A stretch of 64,000 nucleotides of DNA from Gammaproteobacteria bacterium. GTDB lineage: Bacteria > Pseudomonadota > Gammaproteobacteria > GRL18. Below the pieces are notes generated by a model. The model had not been told where the DNA came from. It worked only from the letters and a program-made list of their open reading frames with translations, and did no database searches. Made by a program: the position numbers and the translations under genes. Position 1 is the first letter of the stretch; the number at the start of each line of letters is the position of its first letter. Shown piece by piece: positions 12,731-54,305 of the stretch. The stretch is from contig JADGEM010000004.1 in assembly GCA_016744375.1 (NCBI GenBank), positions 46,930 through 110,929 on the forward strand, written 5' to 3'.

Positions 12731-13540
12731 CTACCCTAATAAGCCCAACACACTTTGTGGCAAAGCATTTGCCTGAGACAGAACGGAAATACCAGCCTGT
12801 TGAAGAATCTGGAATTTGGTCAGTTTTGCTGTTTCCTGTGCAAAGTCTGCATCTTCAATACGGCTACGAGCAGCACTCAGGTTCTCTGCTGCATTTTCAC
12901 CATTACGAATGACTGATTCGAAACGATTCTGAACAGCACCCAAAGTTGCCCGTTGAGTATTAATTGACGCCAGAGCAGTATCAACTGTCGCAATCATTGC
13001 AGAAGCCGCAGCTACCGTAGCAACACCACCTGTTAATGTAGCATCAACGGAAGTTGTTGTGACAGTAATCACATTATTACCACCCGCATCTGGTCCTACC
13101 TGGAAAGCAAATGCCTGAGCACTGGCCCCAATTACTGCAACACCATTAAATTTAGTTTGTTGAACACGAATAATCTCTTCTTTAAGCTGTGTCACCTCTG
13201 TATTCAGAGCGGCCCGGTCAGTCGAGCTATTAGTTGCATTCGCTGATTGAACCGCTAACTCACGAATACGCTGCATGTTTATTGACATTTCATCATAAGC
13301 ACCCTCAGCAGTTTGTGCTAATGAAATCGCATCCGCTGCATTGCGAGTACCCTGATTATAACCACGGATCTGAGAAGTAAAACGTGACGCAATCGCTATA
13401 CCGGCCGCATCGTCTTTAGCACTATTAATGCGCTTACCTGATGATAATCTTTCCAGAGCTGTAGCCAAACCTGAATTTGTGCGATTTAAACTACTTTGTG
13501 CATTTAATGATGGAACATTAGAGTTAATTACCTGTGCCAT
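12731..13540 (-). CDS. fliC: Flagellin (269 aa; start corrected to [15 protein letters not shown])
   Basis: Canonical N-terminus [50 protein letters not shown] and C-terminus [53 protein letters not shown] before 13540. Confidence 0.97.
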
Positions 13541-13673
13541 GATGACATCTCCTGTGATATGCCCCACTAATCCCGTATTGTTTATATAAAACAATGCTTA
13601 AAGCAACGAATTGTGGAGAAATTTACTATGCGGATATACTCTCAAATGGAATATTCACCGCCTCTTGAACACA

Positions 13674-26613: not shown

Positions 26614-27379
26614 CTATTAAATTATGAATGGGATTATTAGAAAATTTTATATGCCAGTCATCATTTCCATCCCAGGGGACAAGCTTAACAGGATCAGACT
26701 GAGCTTTTTTTAGCATGTTAATCGTGCCTATGTCTTTATGAATATCATTATTTTTCCATGTTGCAATATGATTGATAAAGTGAGGAATAACCTCTGTACT
26801 AAAGTCAGTAGAAAATTCATTCTGTTTGATCCAGTCTACAATCTCAGGCTCAAGAATATACACTGCCGCGTTTGCTAAACGGGAAGGAGGCTTTTTTACT
26901 TTTTCATAAAAATTAATAACAACGCCCTGCTCATTTATTGCTACCACACCACAGCTTTCCGGATGCTCAGCCTCAAAAGTCATCATCGTCATCAGAGTCC
27001 CAGCGGGTCTATGGTTTTCATGGTAGTCAATGAAATCAGAGAAATTACAGTGGCACCAGTTATCCGCATGAGCAAGCAATATTTTATCACCTTGAAGAAA
27101 ATGATAATTTTCCCTGATTGTTCCAGCTGTACCGAGTAGAATCGGTTCATAAACCGATTCTACCCAGCACTTAAAATAGTCAAGCTTCAGAAAATTATTA
27201 TAAGTACCAGCATGATGATGTGTATTAACCAGTACTTTGCTAATCCCTTGTTCCTTCAATGTTGCCAGCCAGAATTCAAGAATGGGTTTACCATGCACAG
27301 GCATCAGACATTTTGGCCAAATATCAGTCAATGGTTGCAATCGAGTCCCTAAACCAGCAGCTAACAACATCGCTCTCAT
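26600..27379 (-). CDS. Sugar-phosphate nucleotidyltransferase
   Basis: MRAMLLAAGLGTRLQPLTDIWPKCLMPVHGKPILEFWL. Confidence 0.9.
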   Translation of the reverse strand: MRAMLLAAGLGTRLQPLTDIWPKCLMPVHGKPILEFWLATLKEQGISKVLVNTHHHAGTYNNFLKLDYFKCWVESVYEPILLGTAGTIRENYHFLQGDKILLAHADNWCHCNFSDFIDYHENHRPAGTLMTMMTFEAEHPESCGVVAINEQGVVINFYEKVKKPPSRLANAAVYILEPEIVDWIKQNEFSTDFSTEVIPHFINHIATWKNNDIHKDIGTINMLKKAQSDPVKLVPWDGNDDWHIKFSNNPIHNLIDDYD

Positions 27380-28806
27380 GGATTAATCGCCCGTTTCACT
27401 TCATCCAGGGTAAGAGGCGTATTACCCAGGCGTCCAACCTGTATTGCAGAAGCTAATGACCCCAATAGTGCCGACTGCCATATAGTTCCACCTACACAGA
27501 GTATCATTGCAGTCACAATTAACATTGAATCCCCAGCACCTGCTACATCTTTAGGAGTACTGTTAAGAGCTGGAATTCGATCAGTTGCAAAACCAATCTC
27601 TTCATCCTTACCGGCATGTATCAGCACACCTTCTTCTCCCAGCTTGAGCAAAATATTAAGTGCATTAGTCTGTTGTCTCAATTTTTCTGCCAATACAACC
27701 AATCCACTGCTATTATCATGCACAGCAACTCTTGCCTCATGCTCTGTTGGAGTCAATAGCTTCATATTTTTATATCGAGAAATGTCCCCAATCTGTGAAG
27801 AGCTTTGACTATCAGCAACAACATAGATATTTTTTTGAATGGCTATGTCTGAAATCATGTTAACCAGCTTATCAGGTAGGCAACCATAATTGAAGTCGGA
27901 AAAAACTAATAAATCAATATCATCAGCGACCTCATTCATCGCCTTTAGTATTTTTTTCTGTAGCTTGTGACTGATATCAGTCTGATGCAAATGGCTGACA
28001 CGCAAGAGCGTTTTATTTTTGCATCGATATCGTTGTTTCAACGTCGTAGGTCGATGTTTATCAATAACAAAATGTACACGAACGCTCATATCCGTCAACA
28101 TTTCCAGAGCCTGCTCATGCATTTCATCTTTTCCACAGATTGAAATAAAATCAACATGAGCACCAAGCCCTGCTGCATGTGCAGCAACAATACCCGCACC
28201 ACCAACAAAAAGTTGTTTATCAATAGGGGTAACGACGACAGTCGGATCTTCTTGTGACATTCCCAAAGGATCACATATAATATATTCATCCAGAATAAGA
28301 TCACCAATAACCGCTATTCGTAAATTTGCAACCAGATTAAGCTGCCGACAAAGTTCTTGATAAGTAATACGATGGCGTTTCATATAATCAACTGGAAACT
28401 GGAATGTTATTTTGTCTGAGGCAGCAAACTCCTGACGTAGCACTTCATATGAAGAAAAAGATATTTCGCCCGAATCAAATAATAATTCACCACCATATTG
28501 CTTCAATAAGTTTTCTTCAATATTATCCCTGCCTTCAAATTCTCTCCCTTTAACAAGAACATCAGGCTTTAAACGCTGTATTAATTGTTCAACCGTTTCA
28601 TTGGTTAAAAAAGCATCATCAACACAACTAATGCTGGATACGCCTTCAAGCCTTAAATCTTCAGGTACATGAATTGATTGAGATGAGCTGTGATCGGTAT
28701 GAACAGCTACTGTCAAATGATCACCACATTCGCTGGCAAAACGTAAAAAACGAATATGCCCAGGATGCAAAACATTAAAAACACCGATGACCAGTACATT
28801 TTTCAT
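27376..28806 (-). CDS. Bifunctional HldE-like protein: N-terminal nucleotidyltransferase + C-terminal PfkB-type kinase
   Basis: GVFNVLHPGHIRFLRFA (HxGH motif) at the N-terminus; kinase IAVIGDLILDEYIICDP...VGGAGIVAAHAAGLGA...DVAGAGDSMLI at the C-terminus. Confidence 0.9.
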   Translation of the reverse strand: MKNVLVIGVFNVLHPGHIRFLRFASECGDHLTVAVHTDHSSSQSIHVPEDLRLEGVSSISCVDDAFLTNETVEQLIQRLKPDVLVKGREFEGRDNIEENLLKQYGGELLFDSGEISFSSYEVLRQEFAASDKITFQFPVDYMKRHRITYQELCRQLNLVANLRIAVIGDLILDEYIICDPLGMSQEDPTVVVTPIDKQLFVGGAGIVAAHAAGLGAHVDFISICGKDEMHEQALEMLTDMSVRVHFVIDKHRPTTLKQRYRCKNKTLLRVSHLHQTDISHKLQKKILKAMNEVADDIDLLVFSDFNYGCLPDKLVNMISDIAIQKNIYVVADSQSSSQIGDISRYKNMKLLTPTEHEARVAVHDNSSGLVVLAEKLRQQTNALNILLKLGEEGVLIHAGKDEEIGFATDRIPALNSTPKDVAGAGDSMLIVTAMILCVGGTIWQSALLGSLASAIQVGRLGNTPLTLDEVKRAINP

Positions 28807-29384
28807 TTGTTATTCGACTTCATATGTTGCAGTCGATCAGCAAAATTATGGAGAATAAATTGATGTGCTATTTCTACCATTCCATAATCTTTACTATTGT
28901 TCCAAAAATTTATTTCACCCAATTTTCTGAGATGATTATTCGGCTCAAAACCACTTAAAGTGATCACTTTGGCAGACTTTTCTTTCGCAGCCTGCACTGC
29001 ATTGATGATATTTCTGGATTGTCCGGAACTGCTGATGGCTATCAATAAATCTCCTGCTCTCAATGTATGTTGAATAATGGTAGAAAATGCATATTCATAG
29101 CCATAATCATTTGTCATACAGGTCATCATTGCTGGTTCATGCAATGTATGAGCACTTATTTTACCAATGTTCATAAAATCAATCGCGGCGTGACTGGCAA
29201 CTGCTGCGCTCCCACCATTGCCAATAATATACAAATTACTTTTTAATTCACGGACTTTTATAAGATCCTGGTAAACATTATTAATACCATTTTCTAATGA
29301 GCAGGCAGCATTAGTGGCAGTCACTTCAGTTCTATTGACAATATGATTGAATTGCTCAAGACGTTTGTTAATGATTAGTTCCAT
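28803..29384 (-). CDS. SIS-domain phosphosugar isomerase (GmhA-like)
   Basis: LYIIGNGGSAAVASHAAIDFMN...LLIAISSSGQSRNIINAVQAAKEK. Confidence 0.88.
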   Translation of the reverse strand: MELIINKRLEQFNHIVNRTEVTATNAACSLENGINNVYQDLIKVRELKSNLYIIGNGGSAAVASHAAIDFMNIGKISAHTLHEPAMMTCMTNDYGYEYAFSTIIQHTLRAGDLLIAISSSGQSRNIINAVQAAKEKSAKVITLSGFEPNNHLRKLGEINFWNNSKDYGMVEIAHQFILHNFADRLQHMKSNNK

Positions 29385-30375
29385 TAATATTTTTACCTAA
29401 ATGTTCAAACCAGGCAGCAGTAGCGTGCCTGATCGTATCGGGCTCCCAAACAGGAGCATCTCGCCAGTCATATAAATGCTCAAGCATCCTTTCAACACCC
29501 TCTTCAAAACTAATATTTGCTTGCCATTTCAAGAGTTTTTGTATTTCCGATATATCAGCAAATGTACAATCAGGCTCGCCAGGACGTTTAGGCAGGTACA
29601 CAACATCTCCACCTAATAGCTCCACTAGCTTGTTTACACTATAATGATTACCACTACCAACATTAAGTGAAATGGCTGTCTCTGCACTTTCGGCAGCTCG
29701 TAAAAATGCAGCAGCAACATCAGTGACATAGGTAAAATCTCTGGTTTGAGAACCATCGCCAACAACAGTAAAGGGTTTATGATGGATCTTTTGCGCTAAA
29801 AAGACACCAAATACAGCACCATAGGCTCCTGTAGTACGGGATCTCGGTCCATATACATTGAATAACCGTAGTGCAATTGCTGGCATATGGTATGTTTTTG
29901 CCCAATGCATGACTAATTCTTCACCCATATATTTTGTCAGCGCATAAGGATATTGAGGTTGAATTTCAGCTGTTTCAGGCGTCGGATAAACATCTGGTAT
30001 GCCATAACTGGACGATGAGGCAGCGTAGATAAATCGTTTTACCTTTGCCGCCCTTGCTGCTTCAAGCACATTAAAGGTCCCTGTGACATTACAATCATAA
30101 TATTTAGCCGGGTTTTCAATAGAAGGCACAATATCCGCCATGCCGGCTAGATGAAAAACCCAGTCAACCTCTTCAAAACAGGGTTTAATGGCGTACAAGT
30201 CACAGATATCAGCCTGATAAAACTTAAAGTTTTCCCGATCCATTAACTGGCTGATATTTTCAAGCCTGCCACAGTCAAGATTATCAATTACAACGACATC
30301 ATGCCCCAGCTCAATCAGCCTATCAGCAAGATGACTGCCAATAAAACCACACCCTCCTGTAATTAATCCTTTCAT
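29368..30375 (-). CDS. NAD-dependent sugar epimerase/dehydratase
   Basis: GLITGGCGFIGSHLADRLIELGHDVVVIDNL...YPYALTKYMGE (YxxxK). Confidence 0.93.
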   Translation of the reverse strand: MKGLITGGCGFIGSHLADRLIELGHDVVVIDNLDCGRLENISQLMDRENFKFYQADICDLYAIKPCFEEVDWVFHLAGMADIVPSIENPAKYYDCNVTGTFNVLEAARAAKVKRFIYAASSSSYGIPDVYPTPETAEIQPQYPYALTKYMGEELVMHWAKTYHMPAIALRLFNVYGPRSRTTGAYGAVFGVFLAQKIHHKPFTVVGDGSQTRDFTYVTDVAAAFLRAAESAETAISLNVGSGNHYSVNKLVELLGGDVVYLPKRPGEPDCTFADISEIQKLLKWQANISFEEGVERMLEHLYDWRDAPVWEPDTIRHATAAWFEHLGKNINGTNH

Positions 30376-32781: not shown

Positions 32782-33693
32782 ATGAACTCAATAAATGAAA
32801 CCAGCATGAAATTTGCACCAATAGCACTTTTTGTATACAAGCGTCCCTACCATACGTTGAAAACCATACAAGCACTACAGAAAAATCCCGGTGCAGAAAA
32901 AACAGATCTTTATGTTTTTTGTGATGCCGCAAAAAATGAAGATGATGAAATTAATGTCAATAAAGTACGTAAAATTATTAAAAGTATTAGAGGCTTTAAA
33001 TCCGTTTCAATTGCTGAAGAAGAGACAAACAAGGGTCTAGCCAATTCAATTATTAATGGTATATCACATGTCATTGAAAAACATAGTAAAGTCATCGTTA
33101 TTGAAGATGATATTATTACCTCCCCCCTTAGCCTGAATTATTTCAATACATGTCTGAATTATTATGAAAACAACCCGGCAGTTTTTTCTATTTCAGGGTT
33201 TAACTACCCTGACACTCTATTTCAAATTCCTGAAAAATATGAATATGATGTTTACAGCATACCTAGAATGCAATGCTGGGGATGGGCAACCTGGAAAGAT
33301 CGCTGGTCCCACGCTGATTGGAATATGACAGATTTTAATCAATTTTATAGTTCTGAATCTTTAACTGCTTCCTATGAATACTGGATAGGTCGAAATAGTC
33401 TTAACACCCTCAAAAGTTGCGTCACAAATAACAAAGATGTATGGGCCTGTCGCTGGGTTTATACACATTTTATACATCATGCTGTTTGTATTTGCCCTGT
33501 AAAGTCCTATATAGAAAACATAGGAATCGATGGAAGTGGTGAAAATAGCGGTAAAACAAACAAATTTGATAACGCAATCAATTCTGATCAAAAGTCTGAT
33601 TTAAACTTACCCGAAGCCATTTTTATTGAACCTGAAATTTTTCAGTCATTTATGACTATTGCTGATCCTGGATGGGGCAAGAAAGATGCCTAA
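32782..33693 (+). CDS. Glycosyltransferase (GT2/GT13-like)
   Basis: APIALFVYKRPYHTLKTIQALQKN...LYVFCDAAKNEDD...VIVIEDDIITSPLSLNYFNTCL...WGWATWKDRW. Confidence 0.8.
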   Translation: MNSINETSMKFAPIALFVYKRPYHTLKTIQALQKNPGAEKTDLYVFCDAAKNEDDEINVNKVRKIIKSIRGFKSVSIAEEETNKGLANSIINGISHVIEKHSKVIVIEDDIITSPLSLNYFNTCLNYYENNPAVFSISGFNYPDTLFQIPEKYEYDVYSIPRMQCWGWATWKDRWSHADWNMTDFNQFYSSESLTASYEYWIGRNSLNTLKSCVTNNKDVWACRWVYTHFIHHAVCICPVKSYIENIGIDGSGENSGKTNKFDNAINSDQKSDLNLPEAIFIEPEIFQSFMTIADPGWGKKDA

Positions 33694-34429
33694 TAAAATT
33701 AGTAACTTCTTTTACTCAGTGTTAAGTAATACACCTCGCATTCCTCTATTTAAGTATGGTACAGACTATGGTGGCTGGTATTTTCCTGAAGCCAGCCTGA
33801 CTGAACAAGATATTATTATCTCAGCTGGTGCCGGAGAGGATATCTCCTTTGATATTGAGCTGGTAAATCGTTTTAACTGCTACATACACATACTGGATCC
33901 AACACCTAGAGCACTCACGCATTATAATAATACAAAATTACTTATCTCAGAGGGTAAAAAAGCCCCTATTAACTTCTCTAAAACTGATTTTTATCAAACT
34001 GATATCGACATTTATAATCGGATGATGTTCTATCCGGTCGGATTACTCAATAAAAATAAAACTGTTTTCTTTTATGAGCCAGCTAATAAGGACTTTGTCT
34101 CTCACTCAGTTGGTAACCGTCATAATACAAAAGACGGGTTTAAAGCACCATGTCTACGTTTAGACAAATTTCTTAAAAACATGCAGATTAATACTATTAA
34201 AGCCATTAAAATGGATATAGAGGGAGCCGAATATGGTATTATTAGAGATATGCTTGCATCAAAGATCAGACCAGACTATTTGCTAATAGAATTTCATACC
34301 GGTAACACTCTGTTAGAAAAGTTACTATCTAATAACAGAATATTACATTGCTTGATGCTACGCGTAGCAGGTTATTGTATAGTGTCAAGGCGCGGAAATG
34401 ACTTTACCTTCGAAAAACAAAGCCCATGA
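33686..34429 (+). CDS. FkbM-family methyltransferase (start corrected to MPNKISNFF)
   Basis: IISAGAGEDISFDIELVNRFNCYIHILDPTPRA...LRLDKFLKNMQINTIKAIKMDIEGAEYGII. Confidence 0.8.
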   Translation: MPNKISNFFYSVLSNTPRIPLFKYGTDYGGWYFPEASLTEQDIIISAGAGEDISFDIELVNRFNCYIHILDPTPRALTHYNNTKLLISEGKKAPINFSKTDFYQTDIDIYNRMMFYPVGLLNKNKTVFFYEPANKDFVSHSVGNRHNTKDGFKAPCLRLDKFLKNMQINTIKAIKMDIEGAEYGIIRDMLASKIRPDYLLIEFHTGNTLLEKLLSNNRILHCLMLRVAGYCIVSRRGNDFTFEKQSP

Positions 34430-35667
34430 AAATTTTGTACTTAAGTTATAGTGATATTTCAGGTGGAGCGGCAAAGGGAGCTTATCGATTACACCATGCT
34501 TTTTTAGATAATGGTATCGAATCTGAATTACTAGTACGTAGAAAATCATCAACTGACAACACCGTAACACAATACTCAGTAACTGTATCTGAACATCAAA
34601 AAAAGCTAAATGAATATCTAGCTCATACACTTTACCCTAAGTGGAAAAAGAAGGAAAAATCAACACAATCTTTTAATTTACGTTATACAGGTGTCCATAA
34701 TATCATCAACAATTCTGATGCCGATGCTATTATTTTACATTGGATTGGTGCTGATACCATTCATCTAAAGGAAATCCAAAAAATAAACAAACCTATTATC
34801 TGGAGGTTGGCGGACATGTGGGCTGTTCTTGGTTCCATTCATTATACAGATAATGATAATCAATATATTTCAGGTTATAACAAATACACTCACGTTATCG
34901 ATGATATTGAATCAGCAATCTGGCATAGGAAAAAACGTTACCTTTCTCATCTCGATATTACCTTTGTTTGTGGCAGCAACTGGCTGTCTAATAAAATTAA
35001 AGAAAGTTATCTTTTTTCCAAAAAAAAGATATTAACCATACCCAGCTCTATTGATACTGACACGTTTAAACCATTTGGCAAAATAAAATCCGTAAAGAAC
35101 AGATATCAGCTGGATGATAGAGCAATTGTTTTGTTTGGTGCACAAAGTGCGATAAATGATCATAGAAAAGGATTTGATTTACTAAAGCGGAGCCTTCAAA
35201 AGCTTAAGAAATTAATAAACCCAGATGCCTTCCAATTGCTTGTATTTGGTACAGAGCATTCAGGTAAAACAACACTGGTTAATACTCCAATAACCTTTAC
35301 TGGTTTTATTAATAATGAATCCGAACTTGCCCAGCTATACAGTATGAGTGATGTAATGATCCTACCATCCCGCATGGATAACCTTCCATTTACTGCAATT
35401 GAATCACTTTCATGTGGTACTCCTGTTGTGGGTTTTAACATTGGCGGCATTCCTGAAATAATTGATCATAAAAAAAATGGCTATATTGCCCAGGCATTTG
35501 ATACAAACGAATTAGCCAAAGGAATAGCCTGGGTGCTTTTAAATCCAGACAAAATGAAGTTAAGAAAATTGGCACGAGAAAAAGCACTCAGCCAGTATGC
35601 TTTAAAAGTTCAGGCTGAACGGTACAAAGCATTATTACAAGAAACCGTTTTATCAACACAGGTATAA
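34426..35667 (+). CDS. GT4-family glycosyltransferase
   Basis: YSDISGGAAKGAYRLHHAF...SMSDVMILPSRMDNLPFTAIESLSCGTPVVGFNIGGIPEII. Confidence 0.9.
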   Translation: MKILYLSYSDISGGAAKGAYRLHHAFLDNGIESELLVRRKSSTDNTVTQYSVTVSEHQKKLNEYLAHTLYPKWKKKEKSTQSFNLRYTGVHNIINNSDADAIILHWIGADTIHLKEIQKINKPIIWRLADMWAVLGSIHYTDNDNQYISGYNKYTHVIDDIESAIWHRKKRYLSHLDITFVCGSNWLSNKIKESYLFSKKKILTIPSSIDTDTFKPFGKIKSVKNRYQLDDRAIVLFGAQSAINDHRKGFDLLKRSLQKLKKLINPDAFQLLVFGTEHSGKTTLVNTPITFTGFINNESELAQLYSMSDVMILPSRMDNLPFTAIESLSCGTPVVGFNIGGIPEIIDHKKNGYIAQAFDTNELAKGIAWVLLNPDKMKLRKLAREKALSQYALKVQAERYKALLQETVLSTQV

Positions 35668-35668: not shown

Positions 35669-36601
35669 ATGAAAAACATACTAATAACCGGTGGTTTAGG
35701 CTTTATTGGCACAAATCTGGTTCGTAGGCTACAGAACAATCACCATATTTCTATTATTGACAATTTATCAAATCTACTTATTTCACAATCAGATATTAGA
35801 GCTAAAGAAAATATCATTATCGGCGATATCCAGAATTACCAGGACTGTTTAAAAGCCACGCGCGATATTGATGTCATCATTCACCTTGCAGCAAAAGGCA
35901 ATGTGGTTGAATCAGTGAATGATCCGCTAGACAATTTTGAAAACAATGTTATCGGAACATTCAACATTCTTCGTTCTGCACAGGTAAATGGGATAAAACG
36001 TGTTATTCTTGCTTCAACTGGAGGAGCACTAATGGGTAATTGCGAATTACCTGTCTCAGAAACAAGTTTACCACACCCTATTGCACCATATGGAGCAAGT
36101 AAAATGGCCGGTGAAGGCTATGCCCATGCTTTTGCTAATGCTTACAACATGAGTACAACTATTGTTCGCTTTGCTAATATTTATGGTCCCTATAGTTTAC
36201 ACAAAAAAGGTCTGGTCAATAAGGTTATGAGTAATATTAAGCAAGGTCAGGCAACTAGCATCTATGGAAAAGAAATAAGTCGTGATTTTTTGTATGTTGA
36301 TGACTTATGTCTTGGTATTGATAAAATACTATCTTATGAACATGAAGGATCTGAAATATTTCATTTGGCTTCAGGGGTAGAAAGTTCTATCAAAAAGGTC
36401 GTCCAAAATCTATACAAAATTGCCGGAAAAGAATCATTACCTATACACATTTTATCCGAAAGAAAAGGAGAGGTAACAAACAATGTTGCAAGTTACCATA
36501 AAGCTCAAAAAATACTAAAATTTGAACCTGAAGTTGAGCTCTATCAGGGTTTAAAAATGACATGGGAGTGGTTTGAAACCATAAAGCAAGTACATACATA
36601 A
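35669..36601 (+). CDS. NAD-dependent sugar epimerase/dehydratase
   Basis: NILITGGLGFIGTNLVRRL...PYGASKMAGEGYAHAFANAYNM...RFANIYGP. Confidence 0.92.
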   Translation: MKNILITGGLGFIGTNLVRRLQNNHHISIIDNLSNLLISQSDIRAKENIIIGDIQNYQDCLKATRDIDVIIHLAAKGNVVESVNDPLDNFENNVIGTFNILRSAQVNGIKRVILASTGGALMGNCELPVSETSLPHPIAPYGASKMAGEGYAHAFANAYNMSTTIVRFANIYGPYSLHKKGLVNKVMSNIKQGQATSIYGKEISRDFLYVDDLCLGIDKILSYEHEGSEIFHLASGVESSIKKVVQNLYKIAGKESLPIHILSERKGEVTNNVASYHKAQKILKFEPEVELYQGLKMTWEWFETIKQVHT

Positions 36602-36626: not shown

Positions 36627-37832
36627 TTAAACAGGTTTTTCCGAGCCTTTCAAATCAACCTTATATTCTCTATTCCACAAAGATTTACAGATAATTTTTT
36701 CTTCATCACAACGAGACTGATACTTTTTAGCAATGTCATAGACTTCGCTTAATAAGCCATTTTCTAGTGTTATTGGTTCCAGTCCCAAAGAAATAAGAGA
36801 GTCATTTTGTACCATCAACGTATTTTCAGTATCTTCTTTTCTAGGGTTATGATAATAGCGTATTTCTGCTCCAGTAAGTTTGGCAACAATATTTGCCAGA
36901 TTAATCAGAGTATGCGTTTCTGTCATTTGATTGTATATTTGCACCCGTTCACTATGATCAGGTGCATTTGTGATAGCCAGTCTTATACAATTTACAGTAT
37001 CATTAATATGAATAAACGCTCTGGTTTGTTTCCCTGTGCCATAAACCGTTAAAGGGTGTTCAATAGCAGCTTGCATTAAGAATCTATTTAAAACAGTACC
37101 ATAGTCACCATCATAGTCAAACCGATTGACTAATTCTGGCGCCATTTTTGTTTCCACAGTATTGGTTCCCCAAACAATTCCCTGATGTAAATCAGTTATT
37201 CTAACATTATCATTTTTATTATAATAAGCAAACATCAGAGCATCAGTCGTCTTTGTCATATGGTAAATGCTACCAGGGTTAGCAGGATACAAAATATCCA
37301 GATTCTTTAACTCCCCTTCAACATCTACCTGAACATTTAGATAGCCTTCTGGAATTTTTAAATCTGCTGTACCATATCCATAGACTCCCATAGTTCCGAG
37401 GTGAACAAGATGAATGTCAAGTCCTGACTCAACGATAGAACAAAGCACATTATGAGTCGCATTGGTATTATTATTAACTGTATACCGTTTCAAGTTTGAG
37501 TTTTTCATTGAATACGGTGCTGAACGCTGCTCAGCAAAATGGATAATAACATCAGGTGAGATTGTAATAATCAGGTCTAGTAGCTTCTGATATTCACAGG
37601 CAATATCAATATTATAATAAGAAATTTTTTTTCCTGAGATATCCTTCCAAACCTGCAAACGTTTCGTTATGGATTCTATTGGTGTCAGAGAGTCGCACTC
37701 AAGATCAATATCAATTTTTCTGCGTGAGAGATTGTCAACGATAGTGACATCACAGCCATCATTAGAGAGTCCTAAACTTGTAGGCCACCCACAAAAGCCA
37801 TCCCCCCCCATAATCAAAATTTTCTTTTTCAT
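36627..37832 (-). CDS. UDP-sulfoquinovose synthase-like protein (SQD1/SqdB/Agl3-like)
   Basis: GGDGFCGWPTSLGLS, DNLSRRKIDIDL, HFAEQRSAPYSM, HLGTMGVYGYG, YPANPGSIYHMTK, DLHQGIVWGT: the SQD1 motif series with intact T/YxxxK. Confidence 0.88.
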   Translation of the reverse strand: MKKKILIMGGDGFCGWPTSLGLSNDGCDVTIVDNLSRRKIDIDLECDSLTPIESITKRLQVWKDISGKKISYYNIDIACEYQKLLDLIITISPDVIIHFAEQRSAPYSMKNSNLKRYTVNNNTNATHNVLCSIVESGLDIHLVHLGTMGVYGYGTADLKIPEGYLNVQVDVEGELKNLDILYPANPGSIYHMTKTTDALMFAYYNKNDNVRITDLHQGIVWGTNTVETKMAPELVNRFDYDGDYGTVLNRFLMQAAIEHPLTVYGTGKQTRAFIHINDTVNCIRLAITNAPDHSERVQIYNQMTETHTLINLANIVAKLTGAEIRYYHNPRKEDTENTLMVQNDSLISLGLEPITLENGLLSEVYDIAKKYQSRCDEEKIICKSLWNREYKVDLKGSEKPV

Positions 37833-38405: not shown

Positions 38406-39458
38406 ATGAATAAACAATCTTTAGTTACAATTATTACTGTGACATATAATGCTGAAAAGCATCTTGAGCAAACCATAAAAAGTGTCATAGAACAGGATTA
38501 CCCAAATATTGAGTATATTATAATTGATGGCGGGAGTTCAGATGGCACACTTGATATCATTAAACATTATAAAGATCACATAAATTATTATATAAGTGAA
38601 CCTGATAGAGGCATTTACGATGCTATGAATAAAGGTATTGAGCAATCGGCTGGTAATTGGATAAACTTTCTAAATGCAGGTGATACTTATTGTAAAAAAA
38701 CAACCATAAAGGAGATTTCAAGTTATATTACGGAAGATATAGATTTAATATCTGGAGATATTTATTATGTAAATAACAATAAAAAGAAATACCTTAAAGC
38801 AAGAGGATTAACCTCAGTTTTTAATGGAATGTTTTGCTACCATCAAACATTATTCACAAAAAGTAAACTTTTAAAAAAGTACAATTTTAATTTAACTTTT
38901 AATATTGCTGGTGATTATGACTTTGTTCTAAAATGTTATATCAACAATTATCACTTCAAGTTTCTTGATTTTGCAGTTGCCAATTATCTGGGTGGGGGTA
39001 TAAGTGAAAGAAATCGAATTTTAGCTCGAATTGAAGAAATATTTATCCAATCAAGATACTTAGAGCAGACTGGAGATGTTTTTGATTATGAGTCATTTCA
39101 TAAATTATCAAGCTATGTTCCTGACAACAATCAAAAATTTGCCTACTTAATCAACAATTTTTACAACTCATTAGATAAAAATAAATTAGAAGAAAAAGAA
39201 TTTATCCTATATGGATATGGATATATAGGAGAATTAATTTACAAAAAATATAAAAAAAATATTATTGCTATTGTTGATAAAAACAATAAAGAACTCAGAA
39301 AAAAACATAATCTAACTATTAACAATATTAATTACTTAAATAAAATAAATTTTAACTACATACTCATAACCCCTCTTGGAAGAGAAAAAGAAATAGAAAG
39401 TCATTTAACTAATGAACTGAATATTCCTTCCAAAAAAATTCTTAAGCTTGAAATTTAA
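38406..39458 (+). CDS. GT2 glycosyltransferase with C-terminal Rossmann-like domain
   Basis: VTIITVTYNAEKHLEQTIKSVIEQDYPNIEYIIIDGGSSDGT; C-terminal FILYGYGYIGELIYKKYKKNIIAIVDKN. Confidence 0.9.
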   Translation: MNKQSLVTIITVTYNAEKHLEQTIKSVIEQDYPNIEYIIIDGGSSDGTLDIIKHYKDHINYYISEPDRGIYDAMNKGIEQSAGNWINFLNAGDTYCKKTTIKEISSYITEDIDLISGDIYYVNNNKKKYLKARGLTSVFNGMFCYHQTLFTKSKLLKKYNFNLTFNIAGDYDFVLKCYINNYHFKFLDFAVANYLGGGISERNRILARIEEIFIQSRYLEQTGDVFDYESFHKLSSYVPDNNQKFAYLINNFYNSLDKNKLEEKEFILYGYGYIGELIYKKYKKNIIAIVDKNNKELRKKHNLTINNINYLNKINFNYILITPLGREKEIESHLTNELNIPSKKILKLEI

Positions 39459-39467: not shown

Positions 39468-40844
39468 TTAAACTGGAAACAATGGATTATAATAATTTAT
39501 AACACTAATCTTTATACCACTTTTATTTTTAAAAACAAGAATTTCATTTGTAATATCAGAGGCATAAGCAATACTGGCTACTATTATATAGTTTGTCTGC
39601 CTTAAAAAGGCTATTTGATCAATTAACTTCGCTTCATACAACACACCATCAACAGTTTTTTTTATATTCTGTTTATCGACAAGCCCGATAAGTTTAATAT
39701 CTCTTTTTTTTAGATATGGTAATAAAACATCAAAGCTCTCACCTGCACCATAGATATATACATTTTTAATTAAAGGGTTATAATCCAGTTGCTTAATTAT
39801 ATTACGAAGCAACCCAATAGGAGAGGTCAAACTATTCAAAATATTTTCTATTATATTAGTTGAAACATTAATTTTTTTGACTAAAGGAATTATTTCTTTA
39901 TCATCTAGCTTGTTAAGCATTAATAGACTGATAAAAGTCCAATAAATTATCTTTGACAAATGTAATTTATATACGTCTTTAAATTGCCTAATCTCATCCC
40001 ATAAAATATTTAGCAAATACAAACTATTATTTTGCGAAATTGAATTTTTTTTTATCGTGCTTAATAATGCTCTTGTTAACATTTCAATTTTTCTAAAATA
40101 ATCATCCTCATAATACTCATAAATTTCATTTTCTAATAGAAATTTTTTTGTGTCACTGATAACGGCATACATATCTTTAAAATTATTCTTTGTCAACAGG
40201 TTAGATCTTGAGTTCTCATTGTATGAATAATTGTAATAGGGTTTATTAATAAAGGATGCTTTTTTTGAAAAATATAAAACTCTATATGCAACAGCAACAT
40301 CTTCATAAGTATTCTTTAAAGGGAAAAAAACCTTATTATCAACAAATAGTGATTTTTTATAAATCCCAAGAGGTATACATGAGGAAATTTCTGAAGCAAT
40401 CATCTTTTTTAATAAAGAATCCCTGTCATCTGACAACGAATAATTTAAAGAAGTTTTACTAACAGTTCCATCACTTTTTAAGTAATTAAGTTTTACATAT
40501 ACTATATCTAAATAATCAAGAAAAAGTTTATTATACATATCCTCAAGCATATTTAATTCTATGCAATCATCACTATCCACAAAAGCAAGAACATCAGAGC
40601 TGGAGGCTTTTATAGCATTATTCCTAGCATCACCAGGTCCGTTGTTTTTTTGATTTATAATTTTTATACGATCATCTTTTTGTTGATAATTATTTAGTAT
40701 TTCTAAGCTATCATCAGTAGATCCATCATTAATCAGAATAATTTCAATTTCATACATTGACTGATTAATTATTGAATCCAAGCATTTTGGTAAATACTTC
40801 GAAGAATTATAGACTGGAACAATGACACTAATTTTATTTTCCAT
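39468..40844 (-). CDS. GT2 glycosyltransferase with C-terminal Rossmann-like domain
   Basis: ISVIVPVYNSSKYLPKCLDSIINQSMYEIEIILINDGSTDDS; C-terminal VYIYGAGESFDVLLPYLKKRDIKLIGLVDKQ. Confidence 0.9.
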   Translation of the reverse strand: MENKISVIVPVYNSSKYLPKCLDSIINQSMYEIEIILINDGSTDDSLEILNNYQQKDDRIKIINQKNNGPGDARNNAIKASSSDVLAFVDSDDCIELNMLEDMYNKLFLDYLDIVYVKLNYLKSDGTVSKTSLNYSLSDDRDSLLKKMIASEISSCIPLGIYKKSLFVDNKVFFPLKNTYEDVAVAYRVLYFSKKASFINKPYYNYSYNENSRSNLLTKNNFKDMYAVISDTKKFLLENEIYEYYEDDYFRKIEMLTRALLSTIKKNSISQNNSLYLLNILWDEIRQFKDVYKLHLSKIIYWTFISLLMLNKLDDKEIIPLVKKINVSTNIIENILNSLTSPIGLLRNIIKQLDYNPLIKNVYIYGAGESFDVLLPYLKKRDIKLIGLVDKQNIKKTVDGVLYEAKLIDQIAFLRQTNYIIVASIAYASDITNEILVFKNKSGIKISVINYYNPLFPV

Positions 40845-40860: not shown

Positions 40861-42522
40861 TCATAATTGTCGGTGTTTATTTACAGTTTCAAACGAAGGG
40901 CAACGCAAACAAATATCTTTAGGTTTCTCTTCTATTAAACTCAACACAAAATTATTGTATTTCTGAGAAGCAAATATCTCATCATAAGTTTGGTTTAATA
41001 GATTGCCAAAATTATAAACACTTGAATCTGGTCTTAAACAACAAGGAGTTACCCAGCCATCATGGGTAATAAATATTTTTTGACTTAAGCCACACTTATG
41101 GTATGAAAAATCATAATCAATATCCCTTTCCAGAAAAACATCAACATCTAACTTTTTTCCTAATTCTTTAGCTTCATTTACTTCAGAAAGGATCCAATTG
41201 ATATCCTTATAATTACTCTTAGCCATCCTATCTCTTACTAATAAGTTGTTGGCATCCAAAACATCTCCACCTCTATCATAATTTGTATTGAGTAATTTAA
41301 AATTCAGTGCCTTTACACCAAGTTCTGATACTTTTTCAACCATTAATTTTATTTCAGTATGATTATCAAATTGAATAACGCAGTTTACCCAAAACTCATC
41401 TAATAAAAAACTATTATTATTAATGACTTTAATTATTTGCTTTATATTCTTACAAACCAAATTAAAGTCACCTTTTAGTCGAATGGATTCAAATGATTGT
41501 GCGGTAGCACCATCTAATGAAATATTAAAAAAATCAAGATTTTCTAACACTTCTTCCAAGTATTCATCACTTACAGGAACCATAGCATTAGTGATAGTAC
41601 GAGTTAAAATGCCTCTTTTTTTTGCATAAGCGAGCATTTTTGGTAAATTTTTATTTAGAAAAGGTTCTCCATCACCATTAAAATTTATTCGTTTCAGATC
41701 AGGTAGAGCATCCATGATCTTAATGTATTTATCATAATGCAATGTACCGAATGATTTCCTTGATAATCTTGCACACATAATGCAATCTAAATTACATTGG
41801 TTAGTTGGCTCAATATGAGCCATAACTATTTTTCCAATATAATCTGCTGACAATTTATCAAGATTGGGTTTGATATTTTTTTTTAAATAAAATCCAAGTT
41901 TATTTAAATCTTTATTTGAATTAATAGAAAGATCAAGCTTCTGGTATTGATTAAATTTGGAATCAAATTGTTTTACTAAAGGTGATTTTTTTTTACTATA
42001 AGATAAAATGTTAATATCTTTTGTAGTATCAATATACTTATAGAACTCATTTGAATGACTCTGTTTTTTTAAAGAGTCAGAATTTAATACTTCTGAGGGA
42101 GTTAAACCTTTAGGAGCATTGACAAATGTAAGATAGTCTGCAGGATTATTATCTAAATATCTAAGACTATTCTGAATCAATTGAGATTCTACAAAAGGAT
42201 TATTGGCAATAACTCTTACAAAATAAGTCAAAGTGAATTTGTTAATGTAATTTACAATCGTTTTTGATATACCATCAGTACTGACAAGTTTATATTCTAC
42301 ATTATGCATCATTAACAATTTATTAATTCTATCAGAAAATAAATCATGGCTAATAAAAACAACAATATCTTTTGACGAAAAATCATCCAACAAATTAAGT
42401 AAGCTATACTCTAAAATACTTTTACCAAAATAATTTTTTTTATAAATTGAACTATCAGCCAAGATATCATGAGAAAAATAATACTGAAGCAGTATCTTGT
42501 ACTTGCATTTTATTTTATTCAT
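40861..42522 (-). CDS. Degenerate SpsF-like nucleotidyltransferase domain fused to a radical SAM/SPASM enzyme
   Basis: Radical SAM CNLDCIMC and NGDGEPFLNKNL; C-terminal SPASM-like Cys motifs (CGLSQKIFITHDGWVTPCCLRP...CLRCP); N-terminal ~200 aa resembles SpsF (RVIANNPFVESQLI). Confidence 0.82.
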   Translation of the reverse strand: MNKIKCKYKILLQYYFSHDILADSSIYKKNYFGKSILEYSLLNLLDDFSSKDIVVFISHDLFSDRINKLLMMHNVEYKLVSTDGISKTIVNYINKFTLTYFVRVIANNPFVESQLIQNSLRYLDNNPADYLTFVNAPKGLTPSEVLNSDSLKKQSHSNEFYKYIDTTKDINILSYSKKKSPLVKQFDSKFNQYQKLDLSINSNKDLNKLGFYLKKNIKPNLDKLSADYIGKIVMAHIEPTNQCNLDCIMCARLSRKSFGTLHYDKYIKIMDALPDLKRINFNGDGEPFLNKNLPKMLAYAKKRGILTRTITNAMVPVSDEYLEEVLENLDFFNISLDGATAQSFESIRLKGDFNLVCKNIKQIIKVINNNSFLLDEFWVNCVIQFDNHTEIKLMVEKVSELGVKALNFKLLNTNYDRGGDVLDANNLLVRDRMAKSNYKDINWILSEVNEAKELGKKLDVDVFLERDIDYDFSYHKCGLSQKIFITHDGWVTPCCLRPDSSVYNFGNLLNQTYDEIFASQKYNNFVLSLIEEKPKDICLRCPSFETVNKHRQL

Positions 42523-42644: not shown

Positions 42645-43739
42645 TTAAACATTATTAATAAAGTCATCCGTCATTTTTTTTGCCTGATCATCAGTTAATT
42701 GTTTTAATGGATGCTTACAATAATAGGCAGACGGTCCCTCCAAAACACCTGAAATACCACGTTCCAGGGCAAGCTTAATGCAACGGATCGCATCTGCTGA
42801 AACACCGGCTGAATTGGGAGAGTCTTCAACGGACAGTCTGAGTTCAATGTTCATATCAACGTCACCGAATAACTTACCTTCCATACGCAAAAAACAGACT
42901 TTGTTATCATTTTGCCAAGATACGTAGTCACTCGGGCCAACATGAATGTTTTGCTTATCCAGAGGTTCACTGGCAACCGATTGAACAGCTTCAGTTTTGG
43001 AGACTTTTTTGGATGCCAGGCGAGTTCTGTCCAGCATATTCAGGAAATCAGTGTTACCTCCTGTGTTTAGCTGGTAGGTTTTTTCTACTCCAACCCCTCG
43101 TTTGTTAAATAAATCCATCAGAGTTCGGTGTACAATGGTGGCACCAACCTGTGCCTTGATATCATCACCAATAATAGGTAGTCCTTTGGCTTCAAATCGG
43201 GCAATCCATTCTGGATCACTAGCAATAAATACGGGAATGTTATTTATAAAAGCAATATTTGCTTCCAATGCACATTCAACATAAAAGCGTGTTGCCTGTT
43301 CTGAGCCCACTGGCAGGTAATTAACCAATATTTCTGCACCTGAGCTAACAAGCAAATTAACGACTTCCTCTTTAGTCATTTCATTTTGCTCAGATAAAAC
43401 AAATGTTTCATCCTGATCATATTGCGACATATGCTCAGAAACACCATCTAAAATGCTGCCCATTTTCACAGTGACATCATAAGATGGGATTTGATCACAA
43501 AAAATGCTTGTACAATTTGGCTTTGCAAAAATCGCTTCGCTGATATCTTTACCAACTTTACGTTTATCTATGTCAAATGCAGCGACAACTTTTATATCTG
43601 ATGGCAGATAACCGCCAATATTCCAGTGAATCAGGCCATTAGCATCATTTTCATCTTTGTTTTGATAATAATGAATGCCTTGTATCAATGAACTAGCACA
43701 GTTTCCCATACCAATAATGGCTACTTTAATTTTTTCCAT
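42645..43739 (-). CDS. Inositol-3-phosphate synthase (myo-inositol-1-phosphate synthase)
   Basis: KVAIIGMGNCASSLIQGIHYY...NYLPVGSEQATRFYVECALEANIAFINNIPVFIAS...GDDIKAQVGATIVHRTLMDLF...LNTGGNTDFLNM. Confidence 0.93.
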   Translation of the reverse strand: MEKIKVAIIGMGNCASSLIQGIHYYQNKDENDANGLIHWNIGGYLPSDIKVVAAFDIDKRKVGKDISEAIFAKPNCTSIFCDQIPSYDVTVKMGSILDGVSEHMSQYDQDETFVLSEQNEMTKEEVVNLLVSSGAEILVNYLPVGSEQATRFYVECALEANIAFINNIPVFIASDPEWIARFEAKGLPIIGDDIKAQVGATIVHRTLMDLFNKRGVGVEKTYQLNTGGNTDFLNMLDRTRLASKKVSKTEAVQSVASEPLDKQNIHVGPSDYVSWQNDNKVCFLRMEGKLFGDVDMNIELRLSVEDSPNSAGVSADAIRCIKLALERGISGVLEGPSAYYCKHPLKQLTDDQAKKMTDDFINNV

Positions 43740-43801
43740 GCAGCTAATAGTACCTTTATTTTAAATATTTTATATAATAGTCGTTTTAAATGGATAAACT
43801 C

Positions 43802-44524
43802 TCAACATAATGAACCATTATTTATTAACTTTGTTGCTTTTTGTAACATTTCAGGGGTATCAACATCAATCCAGAGCGCTTCTTTAAGTGGATACACTTT
43901 AGCTAAACCTGATTGTATCAATTGACTCATACCGCCTGATAATGATGTATTACCTTGGGCAATCGATTTCTCAAGAGCAGTGAATAACTTGGGTGATGAA
44001 TAAAAAATCCCCGTATCAAAAGCATTATATTTTTCTATATGTTTACCAATTTGAATAATTTTATCATTAAGATAGTGAACACGAGTCACATCATCCAAGT
44101 CAATTAATGGGTTATCTTTAATTTTAGTATCAATGGCTAATATCGTTTCACTTTTATTTTTATCAATAGACAATAATTCGCGTAACATATTAGCATGAAA
44201 AATGTGATCTGACATAAGCAATACAAAAGAGCTGTTGATTGACTTCTTTGCAGCTAAAACAGATAGACCATTCCCCTGTTTCCATTCAGGATTAAAAATT
44301 ATTTCTATGAAGACTCCTTCATTCTTAGAAATAGTCCTCAGCTCAGCTTCTATTTTTACTCTTTCGTAGCCAATGACTACAGTAAATTTCTTTATTCCAG
44401 CCTCCACCACATTATGGATAACATGTGCGATTAAAGGTATATTATTGATTGTCACCAGAGGCTTAGGTACCTCCATTTCTGATAATCGGCTGCCATTTCC
44501 GGCCGCTATAATTAAGCAATTCAT
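43802..44524 (-). CDS. Nucleotidyltransferase, possibly CTP:inositol-1-phosphate cytidylyltransferase-like
   Basis: LIIAAGNGSRLSEMEVPKPLVTINNIPLIAHVI, NPEWKQGNGLSVLAAK, LLMSDHIFHANML; next to inositol-phosphate synthase. Confidence 0.7.
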   Translation of the reverse strand: MNCLIIAAGNGSRLSEMEVPKPLVTINNIPLIAHVIHNVVEAGIKKFTVVIGYERVKIEAELRTISKNEGVFIEIIFNPEWKQGNGLSVLAAKKSINSSFVLLMSDHIFHANMLRELLSIDKNKSETILAIDTKIKDNPLIDLDDVTRVHYLNDKIIQIGKHIEKYNAFDTGIFYSSPKLFTALEKSIAQGNTSLSGGMSQLIQSGLAKVYPLKEALWIDVDTPEMLQKATKLINNGSLC

Positions 44525-44596
44525 AAATACGAAACATCTTTAAAATTTAAAATATTGATAATACTTTCTTTAGCATAAACCTATTCAAAGCAAATA

Positions 44597-46129
44597 TTAT
44601 GCCATTTTCTCTATTGATTGCCCAATTCGGAGCCAGGCCCTTCCATCCATATAGTCATATGCTAATTTAGAAATTTTCTTACGTTCATCCTGGTAGCCAT
44701 CTTCATTTTTTAATAAAAAGCGATCTATCCAGTTAATGAGTTCATCTTGAGTATAGGCTTTGGGACCTGGCGTCATCTCAAAATAATCAAATTGTATCAT
44801 TCTATGCTGTTTCAAATATTCATCAATATCATATGGAAAAAATAAGATAGGCTTTAAAGCATGTAGAAAATCCATATAAATTGATGAATAATCTGTAATT
44901 AACAAATCTGCAAATTTCAGTAAAGGGTAACCATCCCTATCATTTTTATAAGAAACAATTGGACCTCGATTATTTTCAGCCTCAGATTCAATTGCTTCCA
45001 CTACGATGCTGGTATGCCCTTTTATAACCAGAAGTAATTGTTCCCGATTTAAAAATTCTGTTAATTTGCCATAATCAATGATGGAAGTATAATCAAAATC
45101 AACTTGCATATCTCTGAATGTTGGAGCATAGACAATAATTTTTTTGCCACTTTCCTTCTCTTGTTTCAATATCTCGAGAATAGCACTATCTGTAAATATT
45201 TTTTGCCCTAAAATATCCTCATAAAAAAGATCATTTTTAGGGTAGCCTGAACAAATAATATTCTTTAATGGTGTATTATAAGCAGGTGATGAAACTTCTT
45301 TAGCATAAAATGATGATGTTGACACTAAGAGATCATTATAAAAAATCCTTTCATTTAATCTTTTTGATTCTATGGTCGTCAATGCATTTAAAAACTCCTT
45401 TGGAATCATCATTTTTTCAGTGTATTTCAAACCAACACCATGAGACATATGAATTGTTTTTACTTTCAAGTGCCTTAACCAAGGATATTTTCTTTGCCAG
45501 GTCATATTATCAAAGTAAAAAAAATGTGTTCTAAATAATAATAATTTTGTTATAGTTTCTGAAAACAATAATACAGGGATTTCTTCCTTCTTTAACTCAT
45601 CATAAAGCTCATTATCATCAACGACCCAATATACATTCCCGGATAATTTTTTACGCATTCTTAAAAAATAATATTTGTTATTGCCAATAAATTTTCCACC
45701 ATGCTCCCCAAAAAAAAGATGTATTTTATTGGTGAATATTTTTGCAGACAAATCAGAAAAAAAAGTCAATAATTTTCCAACCATTCTTTCTTTCAGTGAT
45801 TCTGTTAATATTTCTTTTAATAAATAACTGGGTGCAAACGCAACAATATGATGATGTAAATTATTTTTATTTAATTGAACTATTATCTCATTTTGATAGC
45901 TTGAAGCAACAATAATCAGATCATACTCATTATTGCTTTTTGTAGACATAAAACTGTCAAAATCAAACAGCACTTTTCCTGCTACTCTGCCTTTTGTATA
46001 GGTATCAATAAAACCAAGAACAGTCACATCTAAACGACACTTTAATAACCATGCATAAAGTGCTAAACCAGCTGATCCAGCGCCATAAATATATACTCGT
46101 GAGTTTTCTGATATTTCGGGTAAAATCAT
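44597..46129 (-). CDS. CDP-glycerol glycerophosphotransferase (TagF/TagB)-like transferase with N-terminal Rossmann-like domain
   Basis: N-term RVYIYGAGSAGLALYAWLLK; C-term IIVYAPTFRD...VIKGHTS...LLKFADLLITDYSSIYMDFL. Confidence 0.85.
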   Translation of the reverse strand: MILPEISENSRVYIYGAGSAGLALYAWLLKCRLDVTVLGFIDTYTKGRVAGKVLFDFDSFMSTKSNNEYDLIIVASSYQNEIIVQLNKNNLHHHIVAFAPSYLLKEILTESLKERMVGKLLTFFSDLSAKIFTNKIHLFFGEHGGKFIGNNKYYFLRMRKKLSGNVYWVVDDNELYDELKKEEIPVLLFSETITKLLLFRTHFFYFDNMTWQRKYPWLRHLKVKTIHMSHGVGLKYTEKMMIPKEFLNALTTIESKRLNERIFYNDLLVSTSSFYAKEVSSPAYNTPLKNIICSGYPKNDLFYEDILGQKIFTDSAILEILKQEKESGKKIIVYAPTFRDMQVDFDYTSIIDYGKLTEFLNREQLLLVIKGHTSIVVEAIESEAENNRGPIVSYKNDRDGYPLLKFADLLITDYSSIYMDFLHALKPILFFPYDIDEYLKQHRMIQFDYFEMTPGPKAYTQDELINWIDRFLLKNEDGYQDERKKISKLAYDYMDGRAWLRIGQSIEKMA

Positions 46130-46176
46130 TCGTTATTTAATACATTTTCTAAGTGAAATTTGTCCAGATTTCTGGC

Positions 46177-47148
46177 TTACAAATCAAAATAATCAACTCT
46201 CAATTGATCTGGGGTATTTCTATCTATATAGATACTCTTATGTTTTTCATCAAAAAACAAATTTCCATCCGTTGAATTTTCTATATATTTTAAAAAAAGA
46301 AGATCCTCTTTTGCTTTAAGAAAATACAAAGCAGTCGCATATATATAATGTCTAATGCCTGCTTGAACAATATTGTCAGCAACGCCCATTTTAGCAGCCA
46401 AAGCACAAACATTTAATTGATCATTTAAAACCTGTTCACGCCGTTCGAAGGAACACAAGGTTTTCGCACCAAAACTATCCTGATGGATACGATAACGTCC
46501 CAAAATTTCGCTAATAAAATCAATACTTCCCTTCCCATAAAGTAGGTTCAATGTATGCCAGGGATGATCTAACAATATTTGATTTTTTTCATCAACCGCA
46601 TCAATCATATGTTCATGTCGCCTCACCATCACCGTGCAAGCCTGCATAAAACAACCATATCGTATTACATGTTCTATTGTTGCTTTTTGAGGAATATAGG
46701 AATAGTTATAATAATCTTTTGTATAGGTCCAGAGTGTATTGTTCGTTTCGCTGTCAAAAACATCGGATTCATGATAAACAATAGTACAGTCTTCATTTTT
46801 ATCCAGATAATCAGCCTGAATTTGCAATTTCCCAGGCAAGGCAATATCATCACCATCTATATAAGCAATGTATTCTCCAGAGGTCAGGCTTAATAAGCGC
46901 TTCATTGTTTTAGCCAATCCAATATTAGCACTATTTCTGAAAACTTTAAGTGTTGTGCTGTATTTCCTGGCTAAATTAGTCAATAGAGTAAATGAATCAT
47001 CACTTGAGTGATCATCAACAGCAATGACTTCATATTTAAATCGAGTCTCCTGTGTACAAAGCCCTTTAATACAAGATTCAACAAAATCCTGTAAATTGTA
47101 AACCGGTACAATGACACTGACTTTTATTTTTTCTGTCTCGTGGCTCAT
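46177..47148 (-). CDS. GT2 glycosyltransferase
   Basis: VSVIVPVYNLQDFVESCIKGLCTQETRFKYEVIAVDDHSSDDS...YIAYIDGDDIALPGKL. Confidence 0.92.
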   Translation of the reverse strand: MSHETEKIKVSVIVPVYNLQDFVESCIKGLCTQETRFKYEVIAVDDHSSDDSFTLLTNLARKYSTTLKVFRNSANIGLAKTMKRLLSLTSGEYIAYIDGDDIALPGKLQIQADYLDKNEDCTIVYHESDVFDSETNNTLWTYTKDYYNYSYIPQKATIEHVIRYGCFMQACTVMVRRHEHMIDAVDEKNQILLDHPWHTLNLLYGKGSIDFISEILGRYRIHQDSFGAKTLCSFERREQVLNDQLNVCALAAKMGVADNIVQAGIRHYIYATALYFLKAKEDLLFLKYIENSTDGNLFFDEKHKSIYIDRNTPDQLRVDYFDL

Positions 47149-48269
47149 GCTGAAGCCTTATATCTTTTTGCAACCATTCTGCTGTTTGCAACTACCTGGT
47201 GCATATCTAAATAACGATATTGTCCGCATCGACCAATAAAGGTACATTTATTATTCTTTTTTGATAATTGCTCATATTGTTTAAAGCGTTGCTGCGGCAC
47301 ATTGTCAATTGTTTTAACAGGGTAATAACGTTCATTGTTGTTATCTTCATAGGAGCAGGGATATTCATAAGAAATAACAGACTCACTTTCCAGAGTTCCA
47401 CAACCGGGATATAAACGCCAGTCTGTATAGCGAGTAACCGGCCCTTCATCTGTTAAATTAACGGTTGGCACCGGCTGATGATGTTCTTTTTTTAGTTGAT
47501 GCCGGTATTTTATTGAGCGATAAGGCAAGGCATCAAATTCATAATCATAGTACTCATCGATTGCCATACTATTAAAGATATGATGATATTGATTTTCCAT
47601 GGTCCGCACAAAAGAAGTGTCGAGATATAAATGAATATCCGGATGATTCAACAAGTTTTCAAATAAGGCCACATAACCGTTTTGGGGCATAGCCTGGTAT
47701 TTATCATCAAAATAGCCTGAGCGGTCATCATAACGTAGAGGTAATCTTGCCACGACAGAAGCAGGTAGTTCCTCTAACTCCAGATCCCACATTTTTTTGG
47801 TATAACGAGCGAAGAACAACTCAACCAGTTCTTTCCCATAAGAATTTTCTGCTGCCTGACGAGCATTTTCAACTTTTTTATGGTGTTCACATAATTGACT
47901 CAAAAAATACTTCATTTCTGATTCTTTAGAGTATGATTTATTATACAAATGATTAATGGTTTGAATATTGATCGGAAAAGGGACAAACCCGATTCCTTCA
48001 ACCAATGCCTCGACTTTATGATTATAGGGCAACCACCCAGTAAAGCGTGACAGGTAGTCAAAGATATCCTGATTATTGGTATGAAAAATATGGGGGCCGT
48101 ATTGATGTATTCTTAATTTGTTTTTTTCATCATAGGGGTCAAAACAATTTCCAGCCGCATGTGGACGAGCATCAATGACATCAATTGAATATTGACCAGT
48201 GTCCGCTAAATCACGGGCAATAACTGCTCCAGCAAAACCTGCACCAACTACTAAGATATTTTTTTTCAA
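47145..48269 (-). CDS. glf: UDP-galactopyranose mutase
   Basis: ILVVGAGFAGAVIARDLADTGQYSIDVIDARPHAAGNCFD...YGPHIFHTNNQDIFDYLSRFTGW. Confidence 0.95.
   Translation of the reverse strand: MKKNILVVGAGFAGAVIARDLADTGQYSIDVIDARPHAAGNCFDPYDEKNKLRIHQYGPHIFHTNNQDIFDYLSRFTGWLPYNHKVEALVEGIGFVPFPINIQTINHLYNKSYSKESEMKYFLSQLCEHHKKVENARQAAENSYGKELVELFFARYTKKMWDLELEELPASVVARLPLRYDDRSGYFDDKYQAMPQNGYVALFENLLNHPDIHLYLDTSFVRTMENQYHHIFNSMAIDEYYDYEFDALPYRSIKYRHQLKKEHHQPVPTVNLTDEGPVTRYTDWRLYPGCGTLESESVISYEYPCSYEDNNNERYYPVKTIDNVPQQRFKQYEQLSKKNNKCTFIGRCGQYRYLDMHQVVANSRMVAKRYKASA

Positions 48270-53288: not shown

Positions 53289-54305
<1,017 letters not shown>

Follow-up and report, generated by a model that had tools for sequence, protein, structure and literature searches.

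The sqdB-type gene and the island around it

The window analysed here, a 64,000-nucleotide stretch of a gammaproteobacterial contig, carries on its minus strand, at 36627–37832, an sqdB-type UDP-sulfoquinovose synthase gene encoding 401 residues, which we assessed by homology, phylogeny and predicted fold. A first-pass annotation had given exactly these coordinates for an SQD1-like reading frame, leaving the strand unstated; the plus strand of the same interval contains 21 stops in the same frame as the sqdB reading frame. The SQD1 motif series named there is present in full, with GGDGFCGW at residue 9, HFAEQRSAPYS at 98, GTMGVYG at 146, YHMTK at 190 and HQGIVWG at 216. A phmmer comparison revealed full-length homology to Arabidopsis SQD1 (PDB 1qrr; E 1.5e-91, 42% identity), and the predicted model matched the SQD1 structure 1i24 with a Z score of 38.6 (r.m.s.d. 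3.0, 350 aligned), the other structures among the entries listed reaching about 27 or less. Mean pLDDT was 74, and since the loops at about residues 103–120 and 148–166 are of low confidence, we make no claim about pocket geometry. Enzymes of this kind are known from sulfolipid synthesis and from archaeal N-glycans. The gene occurs as a single copy in its genome and was not found in the other genomes of the same genus that were searched, for which reason we regard it as accessory. Phage or viral carriage was considered and rejected, with zero matches in phages and zero in viral contigs, the latter in a scan that picks up close relatives only. A promoter and terminator scan around the gene yielded nothing above chance.

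As previously annotated, sqdB lies between flgL (57699–58673, minus strand, above the family cut-off), which forms the island border, and fliC (12731–13594, minus strand; PF00669, PF00700), whose flagellin is the presumed glycan acceptor. The island further contains a 1,432-residue tandem Maf-type flagellin glycosyltransferase (13793–18091, plus strand; PF01973 in two stretches), fliW (9328–9798, plus strand) and a pseudaminic acid pathway on the minus strand, comprising PseC (52085–53272), PseB (53289–54284), PseG (55568–56593), PseI (56590–57651) and a 748-residue fusion of PseH to FkbH (49076–51322), all scoring above their cut-offs, the fusion in both of its parts. Flagellar genes, Maf and a nonulosonate pathway thus occur together, the combination by which we recognize a flagellin glycosylation island. 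Convergent with sqdB across a 25-bp gap is a GalE-type NAD-dependent sugar epimerase (35669–36601, plus strand), preceded on the same strand by a GT4-like glycosyltransferase (34426–35667), an FkbM-family methyltransferase (33659–34429) and a protein without NCBIfam match that we read from its sequence as glycosyltransferase-like (32782–33693). Two GT2-like glycosyltransferases lie on the other side, one divergent from sqdB (38406–39458, plus strand) and one on the minus strand (39468–40844).

Several further gene groups occupy the island. A cluster at 25504–30375 encodes a radical SAM/SPASM protein, a nucleotidyltransferase, an HldE-like kinase/transferase, a SIS isomerase and an SDR, and has the look of a pathway to a heptose-like nucleotide sugar; another radical SAM/SPASM protein (40861–42522) bears a nucleotidyltransferase-like N-terminal extension. 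One run at 42645–48269 combines a relative of inositol-3-phosphate synthase, an inositol-1-phosphate cytidylyltransferase-like protein, a CDP-glycerol-type phosphotransferase and UDP-galactopyranose mutase, making an inositol-phosphate or galactofuranose decoration possible. The PseH-FkbH fusion adjoins a glyoxalase-fold protein with an acyl-carrier-like C-terminal part (48274–51322 in total), an arrangement that suggests transfer of a carrier-loaded acyl or glyceryl group to a pseudaminic acid precursor. Within the pseudaminic acid gene run, a BNR-repeat sialidase-like protein is encoded on the opposite strand (54399–55553). The island therefore resembles known pseudaminic acid/Maf flagellin islands in placing PseB, PseC, PseH, PseG, PseI and Maf beside fliC and flgL, but adds to them sqdB, the epimerase and the heptose-like, inositol-phosphate and UDP-galactopyranose mutase genes.

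Enzyme sub-type and active site

Homologues of the window SqdB split cleanly in two. Its own group is 53–68% identical to it and carries the motif HLGTMGVYGY...IPEGY, and the second, plant/cyanobacterial-like group is 34–39% identical and has KLGTMGEYGTPNIDIEEG. The first-pass annotation had proposed a phylogeny against non-sulfonating epimerases as a check on its reading; in our tree, the protein nests, with a support of 100/100, inside a proteobacterial SqdB clade that includes sqdBDC operons, with loci L090 and L123 as its nearest rows. The same clade contains a Sinorhizobium meliloti protein, 57% identical to the window SqdB, whose gene is followed by a glycosyltransferase gene in a locus between ybgC and ruvBA and which we take, from this neighbourhood and what is known of the locus, to be the genetically studied SqdB. 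Roseobacteraceae plasmids display the complete sqdB-GT8-SDR order, and it is on these operons and on S. meliloti that the placement relative to Agl3 and Rhodobacter sphaeroides SqdB rests. In R. sphaeroides, which has the sqdBDC operon, deletion of sqdB abolishes SQDG (PMC11346425). The window SqdB shares with the sqdBDC type (S. meliloti, R. sphaeroides) its clade and its active-site letters, including HLGTMGVYGY; there, however, the gene is followed by the GT8 SqdD and an SDR (SqdC) and serves the sulfolipid, whereas here it sits in a flagellar island devoid of SqdD. A third SQD1-like clade, with GGDGYLGWPTAM, occurs in L101, L119, L121 and L122, where it adjoins a CapD/PseB-like SDR in polysaccharide loci.

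Two marks of the plant/cyanobacterial sub-type, a score above the curated cut-off of 575 bits against the UDP-sulfoquinovose synthase model NF041015 and a Glu at Agl3 position 147, are both absent from the window SqdB, which scores 328.5 bits (E 5e-98) and has Val150 at that position. On these two grounds we had first read the protein as a member of a divergent, non-sulfonating subfamily, a reading rejected because S. meliloti SqdB belongs to the same clade and carries the same letters; it likewise falls below the NF041015 cut-off (332 versus 575 bits). Relative to Arabidopsis SQD1, fold, catalytic triad and the use of NAD and UDP-glucose are alike, but SQD1 has Glu in place of Val150, lacks the YG insertion after GTMGxYG and acts in chloroplast sulfolipid synthesis.

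Alanine scanning of Agl3 found His95, Arg101, Met145, Tyr182 and Lys186 to be essential, Ser180, Thr185, Glu147 and Tyr148 to be important and Thr144 to be dispensable (PMC4388408). Compared at these published residue positions, the window SqdB keeps all the essential residues (H98, R103, M148, Y190, K194) as well as S188, T193, Y151 and T147 for Ser180, Thr185, Tyr148 and Thr144, respectively, and thereby the Thr-Tyr-xxx-Lys triad (T147, Y190, K194); the sole change is Glu147 to Val150. All 50 clade proteins compared, S. meliloti SqdB among them, have this valine, so that either proteobacterial-type enzymes can do without the Glu or some other group takes over its role. The exchange might instead signal a related reaction that proceeds without sulfite, such as that of a UDP-glucose 5,6-dehydratase or an epimerase, as Agl3 E147A keeps just 12% of its activity and Agl3 lacking sulfite yields UDP-glucose-5,6-ene (PMC4388408). 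Both the valine of S. meliloti SqdB and the rest of the clade, and relatives that adjoin sulfite-making reductases, in one case within a single open frame, make this very improbable. We thus strongly favor the assignment of 36627–37832, by sequence, to a UDP-sulfoquinovose synthase of the proteobacterial type, because of the fully supported clade with sqdBDC operons, the retained Agl3-essential residues and the clade-invariant Val150; as an enzyme, it is a further member of a known family.

Glycan or sulfolipid

Genes around sqdB in related genomes bear on where its product might go. In L123, from the same family but another genus, the order is sqdB-epimerase-fliW-fliS-fliD-flaG-fliC-maf, with FliW directly after the sqdB-epimerase pair and 75%, 65% and 65% identity to the window in FliC, FliW and Maf, respectively. 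In L012, a Helicobacteraceae metagenome-assembled genome (Campylobacterota), flagellin, Maf and a small Nudix-like reading frame precede sqdB, which is followed by a glycosyltransferase-like protein. The sqdB genes of L123 and L012 belong to separate branches of the tree. Weak relatives (25–29%) of the window's glycosyltransferase-like protein directly follow sqdB in L005 and L012, and the L005 sqdB cluster also holds a gene 39% identical to the window's GT4-like glycosyltransferase. Flagellar settings therefore number three (the window, itself chosen for its flagellar location, L123 and L012), two of them in one family, with none among the lipid-type loci. A flagellar habit shared by Campylobacterota at large was rejected, as their 397 genomes yielded a single gene of the kind.

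If the gene served the sulfolipid, UDP-sulfoquinovose would be turned into SQDG by a lipid glycosyltransferase encoded elsewhere and the flagellar placement would be accidental. Many clade members do sit in sulfolipid operons, with the GT8 SqdD or a GT4 resembling SqdX, the window's genome has generic GT4 proteins, and a lipid glycosyltransferase of a new kind is conceivable in a genome that is 95% complete. Yet within that 95%, S. meliloti SqdD had no match, and for the SqdX-like GT4 that adjoins sqdB in several gammaproteobacteria we found only short, generic GT4 matches instead of an orthologue, the best spanning 58 residues (E 1e-9). Neither partner that would mark a sulfolipid operon is therefore found, and the earlier remark that no lipid-synthesis genes were recognised, along with its suggested look for SqdX-like genes elsewhere, now extends to the whole genome as sequenced. 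Moreover, the window SqdB clusters with non-lipid loci in the tree, and flagellar placement recurs in L123 and L012. Overall, we consider a sulfolipid role unlikely.

A closer competitor is a surface polysaccharide, whereby island enzymes would pass UDP-sulfoquinovose to capsule, exopolysaccharide or LPS rather than flagellin. It is a live alternative because most close relatives, those at 62–68% identity included, lie in ordinary polysaccharide loci, in clusters with rml, glycosyltransferase, flippase or sulfotransferase genes. The inositol-phosphate branch, UDP-galactopyranose mutase and several glycosyltransferases are, in addition, atypical of a simple nonulosonate glycan on flagellin. Against this stand the position of the island between flgL and fliC, together with Maf and the Pse pathway, and the fliW or Maf neighbourhoods that sqdB also abuts in L123 and L012, leaving this reading possible, at well below even odds.

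The reading we prefer, and hold to be fairly probable from sequence comparison, is that SqdB makes UDP-sulfoquinovose, which may be used as its C4 epimer, for a flagellar or cell-surface glycan and not for sulfolipid. The sulfonated sugar in a flagellar or surface glycan that the first-pass annotation had proposed is supported by the SqdB clade, the lack of SqdD and SqdX-like orthologues, the recurring flagellin/Maf neighbourhoods and the sulfite-reductase neighbours of relatives, sulfonation and flagellin attachment being themselves deduced. Clade membership, the conserved catalytic residues, the flagellar location with its recurrence and the lack of recognizable SqdD and SqdX orthologues are observations; what SqdB makes, where its sulfite comes from, and that a glycan is the destination and flagellin the acceptor, we infer as follows. 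SqdB would bind NAD+ and UDP-glucose, oxidize C4, dehydrate across C5/C6, add sulfite, presumably supplied by sulfur oxidation, at C6 and reduce C4 again to give UDP-sulfoquinovose. This sugar nucleotide, or its C4 epimer formed by the adjoining GalE-type enzyme, would then be the donor for an island glycosyltransferase that builds the glycan on flagellin or the cell surface.

Sulfite, the adjoining epimerase and biological meaning

Four close relatives have an APS/PAPS reductase adjoining sqdB: L011 (Parvularcula), L088, and L112 and L113, which are Rhodobacterales plasmids with polysaccharide genes. In L088 (607–2643), a single 678-residue open frame encodes both the reductase (PAPS_reduct) and SqdB; it contains an internal ATG with AGGAG upstream, so that gene fusion and translational coupling are both possible. 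The stretches around lipid-type sqdB members contained no reductase of this type. Genome G528 harbors sqdB twice, beside the reductase in L088 and beside a lipid-type GT4 in L089, as if the two copies divided the work between them. A CysH of the host's own was rejected as local sulfite source, since no homologue was found in the window's genome (95% complete). AprA, as expected in a sulfur oxidiser, is present there (1,090 bits), and with AprA but no CysH homologue, sulfite for the window SqdB is probably an intermediate of sulfur oxidation.

The GalE-type epimerase, in turn, directly follows sqdB in L090, L123, L004 and L092 (45–49% identity to the window's), bringing the loci with this adjacency to five. 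As read from its sequence, the window enzyme has the GalE-like STGG...Y...K arrangement and lacks the Asp-Glu dehydratase pair. Given its recurrence beside sqdB in five loci, the final sugar could be sulfofucose, a constituent of Thermoplasma N-glycans and algal lipids that still lacks an assigned biosynthetic route (PMC12421959). Action of the epimerase on C4 of UDP-sulfoquinovose is at this stage a lead, since the enzyme may simply supply UDP-galactose, and we regard it as rather doubtful that the pair makes UDP-sulfofucose and the filament carries 6-deoxy-6-sulfo-galactose. If true, sulfofucose would gain its first biosynthetic route and bacterial flagellin its first sulfonated hexose. With only two proteins to purify, the pairing lets the question of where sulfofucose comes from be tested directly.

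Sulfonated flagellar glycans have precedents. Sulfoquinovose occurs in the N-glycan of the Sulfolobus S-layer and archaellin (PMC4388408), and the window SqdB, which keeps all residues essential in Agl3 of Sulfolobus acidocaldarius, resembles that enzyme, whose UDP-sulfoquinovose goes into the glycan of surface glycoproteins, among them archaellin (PMC4388408). Agl3, however, has Glu147 and serves an archaeal N-glycan, whereas the window gene shares a bacterial flagellar island with Maf and Pse genes. Among bacteria, the Type B glycan on Clostridioides difficile flagellin likewise bears a sulfonated group, though there the sulfonate belongs to a taurine cap and no sulfonated hexose is involved (PMC5207245). 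A literature search, with most subscription papers outside its reach, returned no report of sulfoquinovose on bacterial flagellin. What is new here, judged by genomic context, is the suggested use of SqdB in a bacterial flagellar glycosylation island.

Together, these findings suggest that the sulfur-oxidising host and at least two other bacteria place on their filament or cell surface a sulfonated sugar that has mainly been known from lipids of photosynthetic membranes and from glycoproteins of archaea. Bacterial SqdB enzymes tied as a clade to glycan loci would bring sulfonated sugars into the surface structures of bacteria, give the flagellar sugars a strongly acidic member with a carbon-bound sulfonate and point to an origin of sulfosugars other than photosynthetic membranes.
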